From the NCBI GenBank assembly GCA_003152315.1, contig PLZV01000060.1:1-64000 (forward strand): 64,000 nucleotides of DNA, written 5' to 3'. The stretch is from Verrucomicrobiota bacterium (GTDB lineage Bacteria; Verrucomicrobiota; Verrucomicrobiia; Palsa-1439). Positions 9,206 to 17,427 of this stretch are shown here, one piece after another. The notes below the pieces were generated by a model, which was given only the letters and a program-made list of their open reading frames with translations, did not search any database and was not told where the DNA came from. A program made the position numbers and the translations under genes. Position 1 is the stretch's first letter. Each line of letters starts with the position of its first letter.

Positions 9206-9982
9206 CTATCGGGCTATTCCGCGTTCAGACTTGCGACAGAAGTCGATGAAATGTTCCAGCTCATGGCTGGGCGGAAGTTCCGACTGTACCTTATCCAAAG
9301 CATTGCTCACTGTCAACCCCGCTCGACATAATATCTTAAAGGCCTCCCGCAACGACCGCTGGGCCTCTTCGGGTACCCCGTTGCGTTCCATGCCGACCTT
9401 ATTGACCCCCCGCGTCTCCGCCGGGTTACCATCCGCCATCATGTAAGGAGGCACATCCTGTACCACTTTTGCGCAACCGCCAATAATCGACATCGTCCCA
9501 ATCCGACAAAATTGATGGATCGCGGCCAGTCCGCCAACTATCGCAAAGTCTTCCACCACAACATGTCCCGCCAGAGTGCCGTTGTTGCTAAAGATCACAT
9601 GGTTCCCGACAATGCAGTCATGCGCCACATGCGAATACGAGAGAAAATTGTTGTGCGACCCGATCCGCGTAGAGAGGCCATCGCCCGTCGCCGTATGCAC
9701 CGTCACATGCTCCCGAAACACGTTATCCGACCCGATTTCCAGGTAACATTTGCCCCCGGAATATTTCAAGTCCTGCGTCTTCAATCCGATGCTCGCAAAC
9801 GGAAAAAACTCACATCGCGCCCCAATCGTCGTCAACCCATCCATCACCACATGCGAATGCAGCCGGCACCCCTCCCCCAGTTTCACATTCGCGCCAAGAA
9901 CACAATAAGGCCCAATCTCACAGCCGCCCCCAATCTCGGCATGAGAATCAACAATCGCAGTAGGATGAATCTTCACCGTCAT
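9206..9982 (-). CDS. lpxA: acyl-ACP:UDP-N-acetylglucosamine O-acyltransferase
   Basis: The 258-aa enzyme performs the first step of lipid A synthesis on UDP-GlcNAc. The left-handed beta-helix hexapeptide repeats (IHPTAIVDSHAEIG onward) are clear, and the catalytic histidine is H121 in SYSHVAHDCIVGNH; the C-terminal helical part is present and the length matches the family. In organisms with an lpxC-fabZ fusion, lpxA normally follows that gene directly. Here they have the same orientation but are separated by 6 kb of repeats and accessory genes (9983-16041), so lpxA probably now needs its own promoter. I saw only a weak TATCAT-like -10 just upstream. Confidence 0.97.
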   Translation of the reverse strand: MTVKIHPTAIVDSHAEIGGGCEIGPYCVLGANVKLGEGCRLHSHVVMDGLTTIGARCEFFPFASIGLKTQDLKYSGGKCYLEIGSDNVFREHVTVHTATGDGLSTRIGSHNNFLSYSHVAHDCIVGNHVIFSNNGTLAGHVVVEDFAIVGGLAAIHQFCRIGTMSIIGGCAKVVQDVPPYMMADGNPAETRGVNKVGMERNGVPEEAQRSLREAFKILCRAGLTVSNALDKVQSELPPSHELEHFIDFCRKSERGIAR

Positions 9983-10334: not shown

Positions 10335-10433
10335 AAACGAACCGGATTGAATTCCCTCATCTCTCATCGCGCAACCCTTTGCCACCCTGAAAGATAAATG
10401 CACTTTTTCATCAAAAACCAATCCGGTTCGTTT
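10335..10433. repeat. 99-nt inverted-repeat element, array unit 1
   Basis: Arms AAACGAACCGGATTG (10335-10349) and CAATCCGGTTCGTTT (10419-10433) are exact 15-bp inverted repeats with a 69-nt spacer. The spacer shares short blocks (GCAACCC, ATAAAT, a T-rich run then CATCAA) with the spacer of the next element, but the inner arm bases differ completely between the two. Confidence 0.8.
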
Positions 10434-10557
10434 CGCAGAATCGCATGTTTTTGCGACCCCTCCCCACCCCTGTAGCCGCGGCGTGCCGCCAGGCGGCATC
10501 CACGGTTTCGAGACCGGGACTCTGTCGACGCGCTCCGCGCCTTTCTTCTCGACCGGA

Positions 10558-10654
10558 AAAACGAAGCCATTTGTCATTTTTCTGTAATCCACGCAACCCA
10601 TTCTCCTCGTGCCACATAAATACGATTTCTTCAACATTACAAATGGCTTCGTTT
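10558..10654. repeat. 97-nt inverted-repeat element, array unit 2
   Basis: Arms AAACGAAGCCATTTGT (10558-10573) and ACAAATGGCTTCGTTT (10639-10654) are exact 16-bp inverted repeats with a 65-nt spacer. The outer AAACGAA is shared with the other elements, while the following bases are specific to this copy and still perfectly matched between arms. Confidence 0.8.
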
Positions 10655-10756
10655 GGTAGAAACGCGGTTTTTGGAGCCCTTCTCTTCCCGAAGGTTTTGG
10701 TAGGGCGCGGTGGCCCACCGCGCCGCAGACTTGGCAATCCCCGCCTTAATGTGGAG

Positions 10757-10784
10757 GGCCACGCTCCGTCGTGGCCGTCCGGAT
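10757..10784. repeat. 28-nt hairpin repeat, copy 2
   Basis: Second copy of the sequence at 10209-10236, again with the GCCAC/GTGGC stem, in the same orientation, inside the composite repeat array. Confidence 0.65.
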
Positions 10785-10870
10785 TGACGATGGCATCCTC
10801 CCCGCCAATCATCTTGCCAAATTCCAACCCTCGCCTTTCTAACACATTCATATAAAGCCACTTAACTGGG

Positions 10871-10905
10871 GGATTCGTTTCGCAAAAACGTGTTTTTGCG
10901 AACCC
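10871..10905. repeat. partial array unit 3 with a strong hairpin
   Basis: GGATTCGTTT (10871-10880) corresponds to the right arm of the two preceding elements and lies 226 nt after the second one. A matching left arm was not found, so the unit is broken. It is followed by a palindrome with 9-bp arms CGCAAAAAC and GTTTTTGCG around a GT centre (10881-10900). The tail resembles the sequences following the right arms of units 1 and 2. Confidence 0.6.
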
Positions 10906-11255: not shown

Positions 11256-11486
11256 CTATTTCTTCAAATGGGCTAGGCGCTTCTTTGTATCCTCGCGCTT
11301 CACCTTCTGCTTACTGACGAACTGCTTGAGAGCTTCAAGGTCTTGGGATAATTCGTTTGCTGGTGCCAGAGAGGAATTCAGTGCAGCAGCGTGATCGTGC
11401 GCTGTGATCATGGCTGATGTGCGAGTCATGCCTTGGAATATCGCCTCGACCGCCTCGTCGTCGACCTGAACACCGTCCAAGCTCAT
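11256..11486 (-). CDS. small helical protein, unknown
   Basis: From the ATG at 11486 the product is 76 aa, ending in a charged helical stretch (DLEALKQFVSKQKVKREDTK) that could form a coiled coil. An upstream in-frame codon exists, but that extension is antisense-like Arg/Gly-rich sequence derived from a fabZ fragment, so the shorter start is preferred. I do not recognise the family. It is the outermost gene of the accessory island, directly next to fabZ 3'-end copy A. Confidence 0.5.
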   Translation of the reverse strand: MSLDGVQVDDEAVEAIFQGMTRTSAMITAHDHAAALNSSLAPANELSQDLEALKQFVSKQKVKREDTKKRLAHLKK

Positions 11487-11497
11487 CGTTTTTACTT

Positions 11498-11581
11498 CTA
11501 CCCCTCCACCACCCAAAACATCCCTTCCGCCTCGCTGACCACTTCGCCCGCCACCTTGCCGACGCCTTTGGCCTTGGCGAT
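11498..11581 (-). pseudogene. duplicated 3' end of lpxC-fabZ, copy A
   Basis: These 84 nt match the last 27 codons plus the stop of lpxC-fabZ (16042-16125) with 7 differences, in the same orientation and without indels. Similarity begins exactly at the stop codon and ends at 11581. Read as protein it gives IAKAKGVGKVAGEVVSEAEG followed by MFWVVEG and a stop. It has no start and is not a gene. Confidence 0.9.
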
Positions 11582-11602
11582 TTCTCCTCATGCGCTGCCA
11601 TC

Positions 11603-11650
11603 CTGCCAATCTCAAACCGCAAGTTTCGCAACCCGTCCAAAGCGCGGAGC
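11603..11650. repeat. 48-nt repeat shared with 15087-15133
   Basis: About 83% identical to 15087-15133. Key shared blocks are AACCGCAA, TTCGCAA and CCGTCCAAA. It flanks fabZ fragment copy A here and the AviRa-like gene there, so both ends of the accessory island carry it. Confidence 0.6.
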
Positions 11651-11802
11651 CAATTATCCACCGAAAGTGTTGCCAGTTCGGAGCGTCAAGGTTCCATCAA
11701 TGTTGTTTACATACCTGACCGGATCAGTCACTGTCCCACCATCTGCGGAGGAACCAATCATTCCGACGGTCAAATAGCCCGCAGACGAAAGGCAGATCGA
11801 TT

Positions 11803-11925
11803 ATGGGCGATAAATCTCCGAAAGCCGTCCACAAGCAGTCGTCGCAGAAGCAGGCCAAAGTCGACAAATCAAAACAGCAGAAGCAGCAGGCTGTGTTCGC
11901 GAAACAATCCGGCAATAAAAAGTAG
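11803..11925 (+). CDS. 40-aa basic MGDKSPK-type small protein
   Basis: The product begins MGDKSPKAVHKQSSQKQAK and continues as a Lys/Gln-rich chain to 40 aa. I recognise the MGDKSPK...KQ pattern as a widespread family of tiny basic proteins of unknown function found in many bacterial phyla (from memory). The ATG at 11803 is preceded by GACGAAAGGCAG, a plausible ribosome-binding site. It is likely cytoplasmic and disordered. It sits alone between repeat fragments of the accessory island on the plus strand. Confidence 0.75.
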   Translation: MGDKSPKAVHKQSSQKQAKVDKSKQQKQQAVFAKQSGNKK

Positions 11926-12072
11926 TAACGATTGTGGCTCGCGGCAAAAACGCAGGGAAACTGCCGAAGTTATGCGTTTTAATTCCAGAGCCGTGAACGG
12001 GGCCAGCACCTTCCTATTCACAGCTCCGCCACCCAGCCCCTCAATCCGCGTCCTCTTCGTGCTCTTCGCGTG

Positions 12073-12098
12073 TCCGCCATAGCTTTAGCGACGGCGGA
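12073..12098. repeat. TCCGCC/GGCGGA hairpin repeat, copy 1
   Basis: TCCGCC and GGCGGA enclose a 14-nt loop. Nearly identical copies are at 13371-13397 and 13456-13481; all three are preceded by TTCGCGTG and surrounded by short TTCGTG repeats. Confidence 0.7.
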
Positions 12099-12169
12099 TG
12101 CCTTCGCTTCCTTCGTAGTCTGACCGGCCGTCTTCGTGGTATTCGTGTCTACTTAGTGCAATTCGTGGT

Positions 12170-12238
12170 CATCACTTCCGCCTCGCTGACCACTTCGCCC
12201 GCCACCTTGCCGACGCCTTTGGCCTTGGCGATCTTGCC
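12170..12238 (-). pseudogene. duplicated 3' end of lpxC-fabZ, copy B
   Basis: These 69 nt match 16063-16131 of lpxC-fabZ with 4 differences. It lacks the last seven codons and stop, but extends two codons further into the gene than copy A. It shares with copies A and D four bases that differ from the resident gene. Confidence 0.9.
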
Positions 12239-12368
12239 TCGATTACCAAATCCGTGCGCTCATGTTGTGCTTCGGCCCGCTGGCGCTTGTGAAAGTTTTC
12301 ACTTGCATTCTCGACGAACACCGTTGTATAAACACCCTGTGAGCGAGTTTTTTCCTGTGATTGCGAGC

Positions 12369-13313
12369 ATGGGGCAGCACATGAACCGATTGGCAAAAGC
12401 ACTCTATCCCGGTCTCGTTGCGCTCGCGTGCTTCTTGTTTGGCTATGACCGTGCGCTCGGCGATACCCTCTACGTGTCGTGTCAAGGCGATGGCTTTACT
12501 GCAAATAGCGGTAAGATCTTTCAAATCGATACTGCATCCGGACACGGGTCCTACTTTGCTTCCGGTTTGGTTGATCCTTGGGGGCTCGCGCTTGACGGCA
12601 GTGGAAATCTTTACGCAGCCATGAATTATAGCGGGGGCGGAATTGACAAATTCGATGCGAGCGGGAACGCGTCGGTGTTTAACTCCTTGGCCTCAAACAG
12701 TCAGCCCTGGTACGTGGCATTTGACCGTAGCGGCAATCTCTTTACGTCCGGGTACTTCACAGATATTACAGGCGTAAAAAAATTCGATACGGGCGGACAC
12801 GTGTCGAACTTCGCCAACATGAGCAACCCCCGGAACATCGCGTTTGATCGTGCTGGTAACCTCTATCTGTTAAACGGTAGCAGCAGCTCGATATACAGAT
12901 TCGATACGAATGGCAATCAGTCCGTGTTCGCCTCGGTGGGCGGCGCGACGGGGCTCGCCTTTGACACCAGCGGCAACCTGTACACCGCTGATAGCTTCAA
13001 TGGTGCGATCGAAAAGATAAGTACGAATGGACAGGTTTCGCTATTTCTCAATTCTGGCCTCAGCTCGCCCTCCGCTCTCGCGTTTGATAGCGCCGGCAAT
13101 CTCTATGTAGCCAATTACAGCGTTACCGACCACCCAAACACCGGCACGATTGAGGAATTTGATACACACGGGAACGGGAGAATCATCGCATCGGGCTTGG
13201 ATTTTCCAGTGGCGTTTGCCGTTCAGGTTCCCGAGCCTGCAACGTGGGCCTTGGTGGCGCTGGGTAGCATCGCCCTTCTCCGCAACCATCGAATGCGTCG
13301 CCGCTCGTCGTAA
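12369..13313 (+). CDS. NHL-repeat beta-propeller protein with PEP-CTERM anchor
   Basis: The product (314 aa from ATG 12369; ATG 12381 also possible) has a signal peptide (MNRLAKALYPGLVALACFLF), then at least six propeller-like repeats around AFDSAGNLYVAN and AFDRAGNLYLLN, and a C-terminal PEP-CTERM signal (VPEPATWALVALGSIALL then RNHRMRRRSS). PEP-CTERM proteins are exported and processed by an exosortase; no exosortase gene is in the window. The propeller suggests binding or scaffolding at the cell surface or in exopolysaccharide, not a definite enzyme. It is flanked on both sides by repeats and fabZ fragments, and looks like a cassette of the accessory island. Confidence 0.85.
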   Translation: MGQHMNRLAKALYPGLVALACFLFGYDRALGDTLYVSCQGDGFTANSGKIFQIDTASGHGSYFASGLVDPWGLALDGSGNLYAAMNYSGGGIDKFDASGNASVFNSLASNSQPWYVAFDRSGNLFTSGYFTDITGVKKFDTGGHVSNFANMSNPRNIAFDRAGNLYLLNGSSSSIYRFDTNGNQSVFASVGGATGLAFDTSGNLYTADSFNGAIEKISTNGQVSLFLNSGLSSPSALAFDSAGNLYVANYSVTDHPNTGTIEEFDTHGNGRIIASGLDFPVAFAVQVPEPATWALVALGSIALLRNHRMRRRSS

Positions 13314-13370
13314 TCTTCCTCGGAACTTCAATCCCCGCCGTCTTCGTGCCCTTCGTGTCTATTTCGCGTG

Positions 13371-13397
13371 TCCGCCACGGCTTTTAGCGACGGCGGA
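13371..13397. repeat. TCCGCC/GGCGGA hairpin repeat, copy 2
   Basis: Same hairpin as 12073-12098 with one extra loop base, followed by ATGACTTCGTGG as in copy 3. Confidence 0.7.
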
Positions 13398-13455
13398 TGA
13401 CTTCGTGGTGCAGTCCGACTGGTCGTCTTCGTGCAATTCGTGTCTACTTCGCGTG

Positions 13456-13481
13456 TCCGCCATAGCTTTAGCGACGGCGGA
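13456..13481. repeat. TCCGCC/GGCGGA hairpin repeat, copy 3
   Basis: Identical in the stem and loop to copy 1 and sharing the downstream ATGACTTCGTGG with copy 2. It ends 16 nt before fabZ fragment copy C. Confidence 0.7.
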
Positions 13482-13497
13482 TGACTTCGTGGCAAGA

Positions 13498-13560
13498 CAT
13501 CACCTCCGCCTCGCCAACCCCTTCCCCCACCACCTTGCCGACGCCTTTGGCCTTGGCGAT
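13498..13560 (-). pseudogene. duplicated 3' end of lpxC-fabZ, copy C
   Basis: These 63 nt align with copy B (12170-12232) with 6 differences and are more diverged from the resident gene than copies A or B. The best preserved part is the final 28 nt up to GGCGAT. It appears to be the oldest fragment. Confidence 0.8.
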
Positions 13561-13601
13561 CCGGAGACCCCGACGCCCCTTGGCTAGCAGCTCTTGGTCC
13601 T

Positions 13602-14117
13602 TTACCATCTAAAAACAAGCTGTGAATTGTTCCAAACTGGTTTCGGATCGTTTTGATGGTCTTGAGCATCGATAACAAATCTAACTTTATGCGTTGTACG
13701 AAGAGCCCTGGTCCGAATGGTCGATGGATCCCAATTCCCCAAATCATCTTTGTGTTCAAAGAGAACTGTCAACGTTTCCGGGACAGCCCCCGTGTTGTGC
13801 GGATGCCGCCATACTAAAGCATTGGCTTTGGGTTCTCCAACTTGCTTCTCCAATACCCCGGCAATATTGCTGGTAACAGTGATGCGTTGGCTCCATCCCG
13901 TGCTCATACGCCACTCGATTATGTATTGAGTATTCACGGGAACTACAACAGTTGCCGTCCCAGCCCCTGGGTCTACTGAAACTGTGCTGATCGCCATTGG
14001 CGTAATAGGAGAGGCTGCGTCAACGAGAGCGACATCTTCCTCAGGAGTTGAGGTGGTCTGGCATCCGCTGAGGCTCATTGCAATTACGGGCAACAGAACT
14101 ACAAGTAGCGTCTTCAT
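13602..14117 (-). CDS. lipoprotein of unknown function
   Basis: The 171-aa product begins with a lipoprotein signal (MKTLLVVLLPVIAMSLSGC), the Cys of LSGC being the lipidation site, which fixes the start at ATG 14117. The mature part is a small beta-rich domain (ATVVVPVNTQYIIEWRMSTG) with no motif I recognise. It lies alone in the accessory island, bounded by fabZ fragment copies C and D. Probably anchored in the outer membrane. Confidence 0.7.
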   Translation of the reverse strand: MKTLLVVLLPVIAMSLSGCQTTSTPEEDVALVDAASPITPMAISTVSVDPGAGTATVVVPVNTQYIIEWRMSTGWSQRITVTSNIAGVLEKQVGEPKANALVWRHPHNTGAVPETLTVLFEHKDDLGNWDPSTIRTRALRTTHKVRFVIDAQDHQNDPKPVWNNSQLVFRW

Positions 14118-14244
14118 ATGAAAAAATGTCTGACGATCCTCCGTGCTAATCGGCAAGTGCATTATCTCCATGGTTTTTCCTACGCGCAGAACTGCCGAGC
14201 CAGAGCGAGCATACACAATTTCGCCATTGCTAGCCACACAGAAA

Positions 14245-14282
14245 AAGGGGCTGGCGCTTCACTATTCACAGATTCGCCACCC
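14245..14282. repeat. 38-nt repeat shared with 11997-12034
   Basis: About 76% identical to 11997-12034, with CTATTCACAG and CGCCACCC conserved. Both copies lie next to a fabZ fragment or its flanking repeats, so it may be part of the same larger repeat unit. Confidence 0.5.
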
Positions 14283-14286
14283 GTCT

Positions 14287-14332
14287 CTACCTCCTCCCTC
14301 ACCCGAAACATCACTTCCGCCTCGCTGACCAC
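14287..14332 (-). pseudogene. duplicated 3' end of lpxC-fabZ, copy D
   Basis: The 24 nt 14309-14332 are identical to copies A and B over the same stretch except one position of A, and the flanking 14287-14308 resembles the stop-codon end with a 1-nt insertion. The fragment stops abruptly at GACCAC, 7 nt before the CheB stop codon. It marks the boundary between the lipoprotein and CheB cassettes. Confidence 0.75.
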
Positions 14333-14339
14333 GTAAACA

Positions 14340-14942
14340 CTATCCATTCACAGCGCCAACCAGTTCTATCAACTTGGGGGCTATTTGGTCCAGGGGCAGG
14401 ATAAAATCTACATCGCCAGTCTTGATGGAAGTCTCCGGCATGCTGAAATCTTGCGACGTGGGCCGGTCTTGAGCGATGACCTTGCCGCCCTTCTCCTTGA
14501 TGATCTGCACTCCGAATGAACCGTCACCATCTCCCCCCGTAAGGACTGCGGCAATGGCATTCGTTTTGTAGACCTCGGCCACCGAAGCAAATAACGGCTC
14601 GGCGGAGGGACGCGCATAATGAATTTTGTTCGCAGAGGAAGAAGAAAGCCGAAGGCGACCGCCCTTTGCCACAAACAGATGGTGATTGGGCGGCGCGACA
14701 AAAACACGCGAATGGCATAGGACGTCGCCAGTCTCTGCCTGTTTGACCTCCAAAGGAGAGCGGCGGTTTAAAAGCTCGGCCAGGATACTCTCATGATCGG
14801 GCGCAAGGTGCATCACGATGGCAATGGCCGCCGGGAAGTCTGCCGGCAAGTCGCCAAGAATAACGGATAATGCCTTCAGGCCGCCGGCCGAGGCCGCCAT
14901 GGCGATGACGCAACGGGCCGGATCACATTCAGTAGCATGCAT
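14340..14942 (-). CDS. stand-alone CheB-type protein methylesterase domain
   Basis: The product (200 aa from ATG 14942) is the catalytic domain of the CheB chemotaxis glutamate methylesterase/deamidase without the usual N-terminal receiver domain. The catalytic serine lies in AMAASAGGLKAL, the histidine in VMHLAPDHES, and the aspartate in AVLTGGDGDGSFG, where most homologues have TGMGxDG. No cheR, receptor or other chemotaxis gene is near. Solitary CheB domains also occur fused to or beside CheR and kinases in non-motility systems. It sits in the accessory island, divergent from the AviRa-like gene. The alternative upstream start would add 32 residues of non-family sequence. Confidence 0.8.
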   Translation of the reverse strand: MHATECDPARCVIAMAASAGGLKALSVILGDLPADFPAAIAIVMHLAPDHESILAELLNRRSPLEVKQAETGDVLCHSRVFVAPPNHHLFVAKGGRLRLSSSSANKIHYARPSAEPLFASVAEVYKTNAIAAVLTGGDGDGSFGVQIIKEKGGKVIAQDRPTSQDFSMPETSIKTGDVDFILPLDQIAPKLIELVGAVNG

Positions 14943-15217
14943 GAGTAATGAGCATGATGACAGTATACTGGAAAATCCTGCATCCGCTATGGGGTGTTCG
15001 CCCCATCCGAGATTTTCGACACAGGCATGGTGCAACATAGAAACTGCCGGCTTTGAGCGAGTCCGTAACCATTATCAACGGCTACCCTGGCAACCTCGAA
15101 CCGCAACGTTCGCAAACCGTCCAAACGGGGAGCACCTTTCCGTGCCTCATTTTTCAAAGCGCTGTTTTTGATACCCCAACAGGATTCAGAACCGATTTTC
15201 TCTGTTATAATACGGCA
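14943..15217. other. intergenic region between cheB-like and aviRa-like genes
   Basis: The region carries the divergent promoters of the two cassettes and a 47-nt repeat (15087-15133) also found at 11603-11650. No coding potential was recognised. Confidence 0.5.
15185..15211 (+). promoter_or_regulatory. candidate promoter of the aviRa-like gene
   Basis: A perfect -10 hexamer TATAAT lies at 15206-15211 with a weak TTCAGA (15185-15190) 15 bp upstream. The predicted start, 6-7 nt downstream, coincides with the ATG of the 16-codon ORF at 15218, which would make the transcript leaderless. Confidence 0.5.
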
Positions 15218-15268
15218 ATGACACAAAACGAAAGCATGCAAACACTGCTCCTTGCGCTCAATGGATAA
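15218..15268 (+). CDS. possible 16-aa leader peptide of the aviRa-like gene
   Basis: The ORF reads MTQNESMQTLLLALNG and stops with TAA at 15266-15268, overlapping the methyltransferase start (ATG 15261) by 8 nt in another frame. Its ATG is about 7 nt after a consensus TATAAT, so it could be translated from a leaderless mRNA and feed ribosomes to the downstream gene. rRNA methyltransferases such as the Erm group are often controlled by leader peptides. Alternatively it is chance; it has no known family. Confidence 0.35.
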   Translation: MTQNESMQTLLLALNG

Positions 15269-16061
15269 AGAAAGGAAAATATCCAAGAATAAATATCGTT
15301 TTGTCGAGCCAGGGGACAACTACGAAGACTATTCAAGCGGACGCGTTTTATACGGAGCGCCCGGTGCGACAAATTTCTCTGTTCGTTTGATAAGCGAGAT
15401 ATTTCAGCGCTGTGCAGAGTACCTGAACTCAAAAGGAAACTCTGGGCCGTTTGTCATCTATGACCCGCTGTGCGGTGCAGGCTATTCCCTCGCAGTCTTG
15501 GGTCTTCTCCACGGCTCTTCAATAAAATCAATTTTTGCTTCGGATGTAGACTCAATCCTATTGGAGTTTGCGAACAAAAACTTGTCTCTGGTGAATGCAA
15601 GCGGATTGGACAAGAGGATAGAGGAATTGAAGGTCTTCGTAGAAAAATATACGAAACAGTCTCACAAAGATGCCTTGGAAAGCGCGTATCGACTAAGAGC
15701 CAAGATCGCATCTCATTCCTCAATTGACGAGCGCGCTTTTCATGCCGACATCCTTGACGAAACATTACTCCCGTCATTTCTTTTAGGAGTGGATATTGTC
15801 ATCACGGATCTGCCGTATGGGAAATTAACAAGTTGGGGCGGAATGGGAGACGATGCCACGGCGACCAGGACGCTCCTGGATAAGCTGCATGATCGTCTTC
15901 ACGGGCCAGCCATAGCGGCAATCAGTTCTCACAAACAACAACGCTTGGAATACGATGCCGACACGTATCATGAGATAATGGCCTTTACCTTGGAGAAGAG
16001 AAACATCGTTCTATTGGAACCTACTGGTCCGCCTCCGACCCCTACCCCTCCACCACACTAA
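15261..16061 (+). CDS. AviRa-like 23S rRNA (guanine-N2) methyltransferase
   Basis: The 266-aa product resembles AviRa, the SAM-dependent 23S rRNA methyltransferase giving avilamycin resistance in Streptomyces. Shared features are YGAPGATNFSVRLISEIFQR near residue 34, the SAM-binding YDPLCGAGYSLAVLGLLHG near 70, ASDVDSILLEFANKNL, and the catalytic-type DLPYGKLTSWGG. The ATG at 15261 is preferred to a TTG at 15252; no Shine-Dalgarno is seen, so coupling to the overlapping 16-codon ORF is plausible. It is visibly more AT-rich than the surrounding core genes. Its last seven codons (PTPTPPPH region) overlap the 3' end of lpxC-fabZ, so its C-terminus is partly made of fabZ-antisense sequence. Avilamycin resistance is not established for homologues outside actinomycetes. 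Confidence 0.8.
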   Translation: MDKERKISKNKYRFVEPGDNYEDYSSGRVLYGAPGATNFSVRLISEIFQRCAEYLNSKGNSGPFVIYDPLCGAGYSLAVLGLLHGSSIKSIFASDVDSILLEFANKNLSLVNASGLDKRIEELKVFVEKYTKQSHKDALESAYRLRAKIASHSSIDERAFHADILDETLLPSFLLGVDIVITDLPYGKLTSWGGMGDDATATRTLLDKLHDRLHGPAIAAISSHKQQRLEYDADTYHEIMAFTLEKRNIVLLEPTGPPPTPTPPPH

Positions 16062-17367
16062 ACATCACTTCCGCTTCGCTGACGACTTCGCCCGCCACTT
16101 TGCAGACGCCTTTGGCCTTGGCGATCTTGCCGCGGGCGCGGGCCATTTCGATTTCGATAATGAGTTGGTCGCCGGGGCGAACCGGCTTGCGCCACTTCAC
16201 ATTGTTGGCGCTCATGAAGTACGCGACCTTGCCGGCGTTCTCACCGGAGCGCAGCATCAACACACCCGCCACCTGCGCCATCGCCTCCAATTGCAGGACA
16301 CCGGGCATGATCGGATGACCGGGGAAATGTCCCTGGAAAAACGGCTCGTTGATCGTCACGTTCTTGAGTCCGACGATTTTCTCTTCGCCTTCGATCTTGA
16401 TGATGCGGTCAACCAGCAAGAACGGATACCGATGCGGCAGGACGTTCAACAGTTGCATGGTGTCCATCGCCTGCTCCACCGGCGTGTCCGCTGACATGGG
16501 CGGCGCGAAAGAAACGGGCGCAGGCTGCTCTTTCTCCATCACCTTCGCCAGCGCCTTCGTCAGGGCCGCATTGCAGGAATGTCCGGGCCGAATGGTGATG
16601 ATATGCGCTGCCAGTGGTCGCCCGAGCAACACGATATCGCCAAGCACGTCGAGGATCTTGTGCCGCACGAACTCATCCCGGAACCGCAACGGTTCGGTTG
16701 CCAGAATGGTCTCATTGCGGATCAACACCGCATTTTCGAGGCTGCCGCCCTTGATCAATCCGTGGTCGACTAGGTGCTGAATCTCTTCGTAGAGCGCAAA
16801 TGTCCGCGCCGGTGAAATCTGCGTCTCAAACGTCTCGGGCTCGATGGCCAGGCTCAGAAACTGCGCGTCGAGTCCGGGCTTGCCGTAATGAATCGTGCAA
16901 CTGATGCGCAACGTGTCGCTCGGCACCACCACCGCCAACGAGTCGCCCACCTCCACGTGCACCATCTCTTGTGGCCGAAAAATCTCGCGCTTGCCCTCTT
17001 GCGGTTGGATGCCCGCCTGCTTGATCAACTTGACGTACGGCAGCGCGCTGCCGTCGCCAACGGGCGGCTCATTCCCATCCAGTTCGATAATCAAATTATC
17101 GATCCCGTACCCATTCAGCGTCGCCAGCACGTGCTCTACCGTGTGAACGACCGTCCCATTCGTCCCGATGGTCGTCCACCGCGTCGTATCGCCGATATTG
17201 CGGATATTCGGCTCGATTTCAGGTTTCCCCTCGAGATCGATCCGGACAAACTTGATGCCATAATCCACCGGCGCGGGTTTCCAGGTCATGTTGATCTGCG
17301 AACCCGTGTGGATGCCAATGCCCGAGAAGGACACGGGATGTTTGATCGTCTGCTGCTGTTTCAGCAT
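16042..17367 (-). CDS. lpxC-fabZ: bifunctional UDP-3-O-acyl-GlcNAc deacetylase / 3-hydroxyacyl-ACP dehydratase
   Basis: A natural fusion: the N-terminal ~300 residues are LpxC, the committed zinc deacetylase of lipid A synthesis (GIGIHTG, zinc ligands in HTVEHVLATLNG near 75-86, and EFVRHKILDVLGD); the C-terminal ~145 are FabZ (LPHRYPFLLVDR, QGHFPGHPIMPGVLQLEAMA). The fusion is known from Bacteroidetes, Chlorobi and Verrucomicrobia. ATG 17367 gives MLKQQQTIKHPVSFSGIGIH, the normal LpxC N-terminus (441 aa); an upstream codon at 17406 is less likely. Its 3' end converges with and overlaps the AviRa-like gene by 20 nt, and fragments of this 3' end recur at 11498, 12170, 13498 and 14287. Confidence 0.96.
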   Translation of the reverse strand: MLKQQQTIKHPVSFSGIGIHTGSQINMTWKPAPVDYGIKFVRIDLEGKPEIEPNIRNIGDTTRWTTIGTNGTVVHTVEHVLATLNGYGIDNLIIELDGNEPPVGDGSALPYVKLIKQAGIQPQEGKREIFRPQEMVHVEVGDSLAVVVPSDTLRISCTIHYGKPGLDAQFLSLAIEPETFETQISPARTFALYEEIQHLVDHGLIKGGSLENAVLIRNETILATEPLRFRDEFVRHKILDVLGDIVLLGRPLAAHIITIRPGHSCNAALTKALAKVMEKEQPAPVSFAPPMSADTPVEQAMDTMQLLNVLPHRYPFLLVDRIIKIEGEEKIVGLKNVTINEPFFQGHFPGHPIMPGVLQLEAMAQVAGVLMLRSGENAGKVAYFMSANNVKWRKPVRPGDQLIIEIEMARARGKIAKAKGVCKVAGEVVSEAEVMFSVVEG

Positions 17368-17399
17368 GTGCGACGCTCTTCTAACACTCCCCATACCAA

Positions 17400-17427
17400 T
17401 TGGCAAGCCAGCGGTTTTCTGTATACT
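17400..17427 (+). promoter_or_regulatory. sigma70-type promoter for the sialidase-like gene
   Basis: TTGGCA (17400-17405), 16-bp spacer, TATACT (17422-17427). The predicted start near 17434 leaves a leader of about 27 nt before ATG 17461. It faces away from lpxC-fabZ. Confidence 0.6.

Follow-up and report, generated by a model that had tools for sequence, protein, structure and literature searches.

How do several copies of the end of one housekeeping gene come to lie, one behind another, among unrelated accessory genes? The question is raised by a 64,000-nucleotide (nt) stretch of contig PLZV01000060.1 (assembly GCA_003152315.1) from a Verrucomicrobiota genome, hereafter the window, in which an island separates lpxA from the fusion gene lpxC-fabZ. 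The original prediction, made from the sequence alone, had read this island as cassettes stacked at a gene 3′ end, as with att sites, with no recombinase present. The stacking stands, and no recombinase or transposase was identified in the island by Pfam, whereas the analogy with att sites is not supported. In our judgement the fragments are probably displaced gene ends, left behind where DNA from relatives, bringing a gene end together with an accessory gene, recombined with the resident gene at its end and pushed that end aside.

Data and Scope

The fabZ fragments were detected by self-comparison of the window, to which all island coordinates refer, and by a search of the whole 4.9 Mb genome (G000). 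Other genomes are the closest sister species (G002), a third species (G001), and another genus (G007). Gene-end copies were surveyed systematically in 1.59 Mb of the 4.9 Mb of G000 (1146 genes), counting noncoding copies no more than 7 kb from the parent gene, with 563 kb (372 genes) of more distant Verrucomicrobiota as the control set. Genes in the survey were called with our own simple codon model; gene names come from Pfam for some genes and were read from translations for the remainder.

Copies of the fabZ End in the Island

Both searches recovered four copies of the fabZ 3′ end, A to D, all in the orientation of fabZ (Table 1), with E-values in the whole-genome search of 2e-28 (A), 2e-24 (B), 4e-14 (C), and 8e-7 (D). 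Number, orientation, and the exact coincidence of the end of copy A with the fabZ stop codon agree with the original prediction. Similarity of 87% extends on to 11595 in fragment A, and weak similarity goes approximately 19 nt beyond the stop in fragment D. The rest of the 4.9 Mb genome contains neither a fifth copy of the fabZ end nor a second full copy of lpxC-fabZ. A dispersed repeat family was rejected as an explanation because the fabZ fragment is confined to this locus. Single accessory genes had been expected between successive fragments, which is correct for the intervals A-B, B-C, and C-D (one gene or open reading frame [ORF] each) but not for that between D and fabZ, which holds two, a CheB-like and an AviRa-like gene. 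The latter is convergent with lpxC-fabZ, and its reading frame closes, final codons and stop included, on the antisense strand of the fabZ end, which places the island joint directly at the fabZ stop.

Fragments B and C abut a dispersed intergenic repeat present at approximately 30 places in the genome, and fragments B and D have a tail in common beyond the fabZ part, for which no further occurrence was found in the genus (search at E <= 0.01). Since B and C run into the dispersed repeat and B and D continue into this tail, the units are composite.

The Same Locus in Related Genomes

In Verrucomicrobiaceae-type relatives, lpxA lies 0-107 bp behind lpxC-fabZ, which represents the empty site of this locus. 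Two sister-genus genomes have a gap of 923-970 bp between lpxC-fabZ and lpxA with one gene (gluQRS-like, by eye from its translation), and in the sister species G002 the gap reaches 12.5 kb and holds ten different genes, including those for GNAT, metallo-hydrolase, aldo-keto reductase, DUF347, and secreted proteins. This cargo is entirely unlike that of G000, no recombinase was found among the G002 island proteins, and the island contains three fabZ-end fragments of its own (F1-F3). Elsewhere the window and G002 are collinear at approximately 86% identity, with 0.25-0.31 of fourfold sites different, and the fabZ island is the biggest difference between them. In the third species, G001, lpxA and lpxC-fabZ are on separate contigs and core-type genes (rex, thrB, and apgM, by eye) follow fabZ (locus L048, G001:C32); this is another synteny break at the same gene end and no empty site.

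The copies had been proposed to form a repeat family of their own, and the comparison bears this out: A, B, and C, together with F2 and F3 of the sister species, all carry TGC>GGC at one fabZ codon, and the resulting Gly state occurs in 0 of 69 fabZ sequences (Cys in 62, Ile in six, Val in one). F2 differs from A and B at 4 of 50 positions and from its own G002 fabZ at 9 of 50. The common substitution, absent from the working genes, points to a common ancestry of the fragments of both species, separate from that of the working fabZ genes. The two outcomes that the prediction had named as refuting it, scattered genome-wide copies and an assembly artefact, are both rejected: beyond the four copies at this locus only the three at the same spot in G002 were found, and an independent genome, that of the sister species with its own island, shows the pattern too, as do other genes.

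Gene-End Copies at Other Genes

The scar is not restricted to fabZ, a candidate explanation that was rejected because copies occur at many other genes, where they lie past one or two inserted genes. The metallo-hydrolase gene beside F3 in G002 is followed by one inserted gene and then by a 42-nt copy of its 3′ end (41/42); the copy continues to its own stop, and the working gene has gained a tail like the fabZ fragment. Copies of 3′ ends in G000 were identified for comM (80 nt, terminating at the stop), larB (70 nt, along with a 47-nt copy of the larC 5′ end), trmJ (76 nt), rlmD (76 nt and 56 nt), a ThiF/rhodanese (moeB-like) gene, a DEAD helicase gene, and a 251-amino-acid (aa) gene with three copies, each ending at its stop codon. 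Behind comF in G001 come a cupin gene and a 444-nt comF 3′-end copy (92%) that includes the stop; farther on, a 108-nt copy (approximately 84%) follows response-regulator-like ORFs. These parents are unrelated and have no core sequence in common, and their copies range from 42 to 444 nt in length.

Several of these sites are free of inserts in related genomes. The comF-accD gap is approximately 190 bp and insert-free in G000 (one gene in G002), the larB-larC gap is approximately 110 bp and insert-free in G002, and trmJ and its neighbor almost abut in G007. The displaced trmJ end, like that of fabZ, is common to two species despite entirely different intervening cargo. In the larB-larC gap (L154 15643-17880 = G000:C38:35643-37880; L168 2098-2804), both copies flank a small membrane-protein ORF, and the larC 5′-end copy is present in G007 as well.

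The systematic survey identified 16 copies of 3′ ends downstream of their parents and three upstream, seven copies of 5′ ends upstream and two downstream, two mid-gene copies, and two inverted ones. Outward copies thus outnumber inward ones by 23:5 (p = 0.0009). Ten of 20 3′-end copies stop exactly at the stop codon, and four of seven 5′-end copies start at codon 1.

Divergence of Working Ends and Copies

Differences between gene end and copy are mainly synonymous. For 3′ ends, 115 of 210 differences are synonymous (0.55; neutral expectation 0.23), a total that includes multiple copies per parent (fabZ and the 251-aa gene) and is hence partly non-independent. An in-place duplication of the resident end would, by our estimate, give approximately 0.38 synonymous differences, or 0.46 with a generous transition bias; the observed fraction is higher (p = 5e-7 and 0.007), and eight better-preserved independent loci yield 53 of 75 (p = 8e-9 and 1e-5 versus the same two estimates). 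This predominance of synonymous differences argues for recombination with relatives' DNA rather than site-specific integration.

When polarized with G002 and G001 at five loci, working ends have 12 changes (all synonymous) and copies have 13 (eight synonymous, five not), small counts over 25 sites; in-place duplication would give approximately 1:4 for working end to copy (observed 12:13, p = 0.001-0.04). At trmJ and rlmD, moreover, it is the copy that keeps the C-terminus of the sister genes, whereas a new tail, with a new stop, closes the working gene. Synonymous excess, polarized counts, and the trmJ and rlmD tails together indicate that working end and copy evolved separately as working genes in different lineages before meeting, and the resident end, once displaced, is the most likely source of the leftover piece. 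Total divergence was discarded as an indicator of the direction of replacement, being too weak on 63-77 nt.

Origin of the Gene-End Copies

Under displacement, DNA from related bacteria carrying the end of a gene with an accessory gene behind it would enter the cell and pair by homology with the resident gene near its 3′ end. The incoming end would become the completion of the working gene, and the far side of the incoming piece would be joined inside the old end, leaving the accessory gene between the working gene and a leftover (approximately 40-440 nt) of the earlier end; repeated rounds at lpxC-fabZ would yield the stacked series A-B-C-D. One joint would be homologous and the other illegitimate, that is, homology-facilitated illegitimate recombination. 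Related species are the presumed source of the incoming ends, and natural transformation may be the means of uptake, comEC, comF, and comM being present (comEC in all three of G000, G001, and G002). Ku was not found in the genus, which makes end-joining unlikely, and capture by non-homologous end-joining was rejected for the same reason. Displacement is consistent with local copies at many genes, their direct orientation and outward position, ends at stop codons, and empty sites in relatives; the displaced 3′ ends lie past an acquired gene in direct orientation, and the two ends are divergent alleles. The new tails at trmJ and rlmD would fit a restoration of the target gene by the incoming end; the working end of fabZ looks native.

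Several points weigh against this reading. No donor sequence was found with the cargo directly behind an incoming gene end, so we infer the direction of replacement. The copies at fabZ carry the odd bases and the working end does not; displacement can account for this only with an earlier donor lineage that had Gly, or with copying among fragments. Copy lengths cluster at approximately 60-105 nt, a pattern not expected from random joints, and the number of polarized sites is small. It is also not clear that the rate sets this genus apart: the controls contain four outward cases in 372 genes, mostly of lower identity, and parents with a copy at no less than 83% identity number 15 of 1146 in G000 versus one of 372 (p = 0.07). 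Lastly, the rare repeat D10, described below, has seven matches in 1.8 Mb and lies no more than 130 nt from four displaced ends in addition to its place within the fabZ island; its closeness to several copies hints at a sequence-guided step, a lead only, as the D10 model was partly built from those copies.

A rather unlikely alternative is insertion of the Campbell type, in which circles of one accessory gene and one gene-end repeat insert and leave via RecA pairing, giving recombinase-free cassette borders. It predicts the same anatomy of gene, cargo, and shorter direct copy, and the different cargo between the displaced ends common to two species at fabZ and trmJ leaves room for cargo exchange via the repeats. 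However, no circular form or excised state was seen, many copies probably do not exceed the length that RecA uses efficiently, and the first copy would still require another route of origin. We also think it unlikely that gene-end repeats make up a recombinase-free cassette system in which RecA would use the 3′ ends of dozens of housekeeping genes, together with their copies, as blocks of homology, perhaps with D10 as a guide. If true, it would amount to an integron-like store distributed over ordinary gene ends, with single accessory genes entering, leaving, and passing from one species to another.

Duplication in place, in which insertion duplicates a long target site or copies the resident end by template switching and the duplicate later decays, would yield direct copies only beside the parent and in gene orientation, and 5′-end copies such as that of larC too. 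It is decidedly improbable given the synonymous excess, the near-equal change on both lineages, and the trmJ and rlmD genes, whose native tail is in the copy and new tail in the working gene; in addition, copies end at the stop codon and not at random distances past it, and no Ku was found.

Serial integration at the fabZ 3′ end by a site-specific recombinase since lost, the att-like process of the original prediction, would explain why inserts are stacked, why direct repeats sit at a gene 3′ end, and why content varies between species. It is very improbable because unrelated genes of no common core bear the same scar with copies of such different lengths, neither fabZ island (G000, G002) encodes a recombinase, 5′-end copies exist upstream of genes, and fabZ retains its native end while the fragments hold the variant. 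That selection maintains the fragments as short functional RNAs, as terminators, or as hairpins of the attC kind is hardly credible, although a gene on the same strand has its 3′ end at each of D, C, and F3, since no folding signal (z -0.6 to -1.6) and no Rfam match above the gathering threshold were obtained, the fragments occupy one locus per genome, and the setting of A, B, F1, and F2 is different.

A virus-borne source was rejected as well, the 23-nt fragment core having no match in viral contigs as the one exact pattern searched. A literature search for lpxC-fabZ as a known integration site returned nothing relevant.

Other Features of the Island

The accessory genes of the island are diverse (Table 1). 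The AviRa-like gene represents a member of the avilamycin-resistance family in an island of an uncultured Verrucomicrobiota. No receiver domain was detected with the CheB methylesterase domain in the Pfam scan, and no chemotaxis genes are present in the island. The start at 12156 of the ORF encoding the PEP-CTERM NHL-repeat protein is an extension through fragment B. An integron integrase was not identified in the island by Pfam, and no search for one was made over the remaining genome.

Table 1. Position, strand, and annotation of features in the lpxA/lpxC-fabZ island of the window.
Feature	Position	Strand	Remarks
lpxA	9206..9982	-	Pfam; distal island border
~76-aa ORF	11256..11486	-	Distal to fragment A
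Fragment A	11498..11595	-	84 nt at 92% (11498-11581); stops exactly at fabZ stop codon
Repeat D10, copy 1	11597..11655	-	1 nt from fragment A
40-aa ORF	11803..11925	+	Cargo between A and B; read from sequence
Tail T beyond fragment B	11996..12034	-	Common to fragment D; self-comparison, repeat family D13
Dispersed intergenic repeat (CTTCGCGTGTCCGCCATAGCTTTAGCGACGGCGGATG...)	13335-13492 and 12049-12154		Abuts fragments B and C
Fragment B	12170..12241	-	72 nt, 93%; matches fragment consensus fully over 63 nt
PEP-CTERM NHL-repeat protein gene	12381..13313	+	Cargo between B and C
Fragment C	13497..13561	-	65 nt, 85%
211-aa ORF	13602..14237	-	Cargo between C and D; no family assigned
Tail T immediately beyond fragment D	14244..14282	-	Self-comparison, repeat family D13
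Fragment D	14287..14332	-	85%, final 45 nt of fabZ; begins ~8 nt past CheB-like stop
CheB methylesterase-domain gene, stand-alone	14340..15038	-	Pfam CheB_methylest 2e-53
Repeat D10, copy 2	15081..15139	-	Between AviRa-like and CheB-like genes
AviRa-like rRNA methyltransferase gene	15252..16061	+	Pfam AviRa 7e-64; PDB 1o9g/1o9h alignment
lpxC-fabZ fusion gene	16042..17406	-	Pfam LpxC + FabA; parent, 3′ end is the copied part

Two further kinds of repeats were observed. D10 (CCCCGCTTTGGACGGTTTG...), a rare repeat of 45-58 bp, is also located at G000:C48:192188-192242 and at locus L047 14813-14877. Hairpin-type repeats of approximately 100 bp, framed by AAACGAA...TTCGTTT, are present at 10427-10897 of the window and at approximately 17000-17120 of locus L047; their inner stem sequence varies between copies with pairing maintained, as in the arm pair 10559-10589/10624-10654.

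Comparison With Known Systems and Implications

Sequential displacement via homology-facilitated illegitimate recombination has been proposed for the effector-immunity modules of the type VI secretion system (T6SS) of Vibrio cholerae (Kirchberger et al., 2017, PMC5361080). Similar to the gene ends described here, a new module arriving there at a conserved gene region moves the old 3′ end downstream, and an array arises by repetition; the T6SS modules, however, pair a toxin gene with an immunity gene, whereas here the parents are housekeeping genes, the cargo is unrelated, and many loci are involved. C-terminal displacement and orphan tips in Rhs/CdiA (Jackson et al., 2009; Poole et al., 2011, as cited in PMC5361080) likewise leave displaced 3′ ends lined up behind a conserved gene, yet their displaced pieces hold variable toxin domains, in contrast to the near-identical housekeeping ends found here, between which only the cargo varies. 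Neither a parent with a C-terminal toxin nor immunity cargo is present, and the fabZ-type arrays thus work like polymorphic-toxin arrays but are not such arrays.

In integron cassette arrays, too, single genes are stacked with short, related repeats between them. Unlike in integrons, the island has no integrase and no foldable attC (folding of the fragments is not significant), and the repeats derive from the neighboring gene and differ by locus. Hotspots of horizontal gene transfer (HGT) without mobile elements can be exchanged by recombination in flanking core genes, and many lack integrases, with their origin still to be explained (Oliveira et al., 2017, PMC5635113). As in the fabZ island, gene turnover is high while the core genes on either side stay fixed, often with no integrase, but the exchange of whole islands by flanking crossovers does not, in our reading, predict gene-end copies. 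Displacement would offer a concrete route to such integrase-less hotspots.

What is new is that a scar known from toxin genes is found here at ordinary housekeeping genes across the chromosome. Displaced gene ends would make additive gene uptake at the ends of core genes visible as a countable scar that marks the entry point of each accessory gene and tells whether a relative supplied that gene along with the end of its neighbor. Provided that the scar proves widespread, illegitimate capture anchored by homology, argued until now mainly for toxin loci, would become measurable genome by genome in uncultured bacteria.

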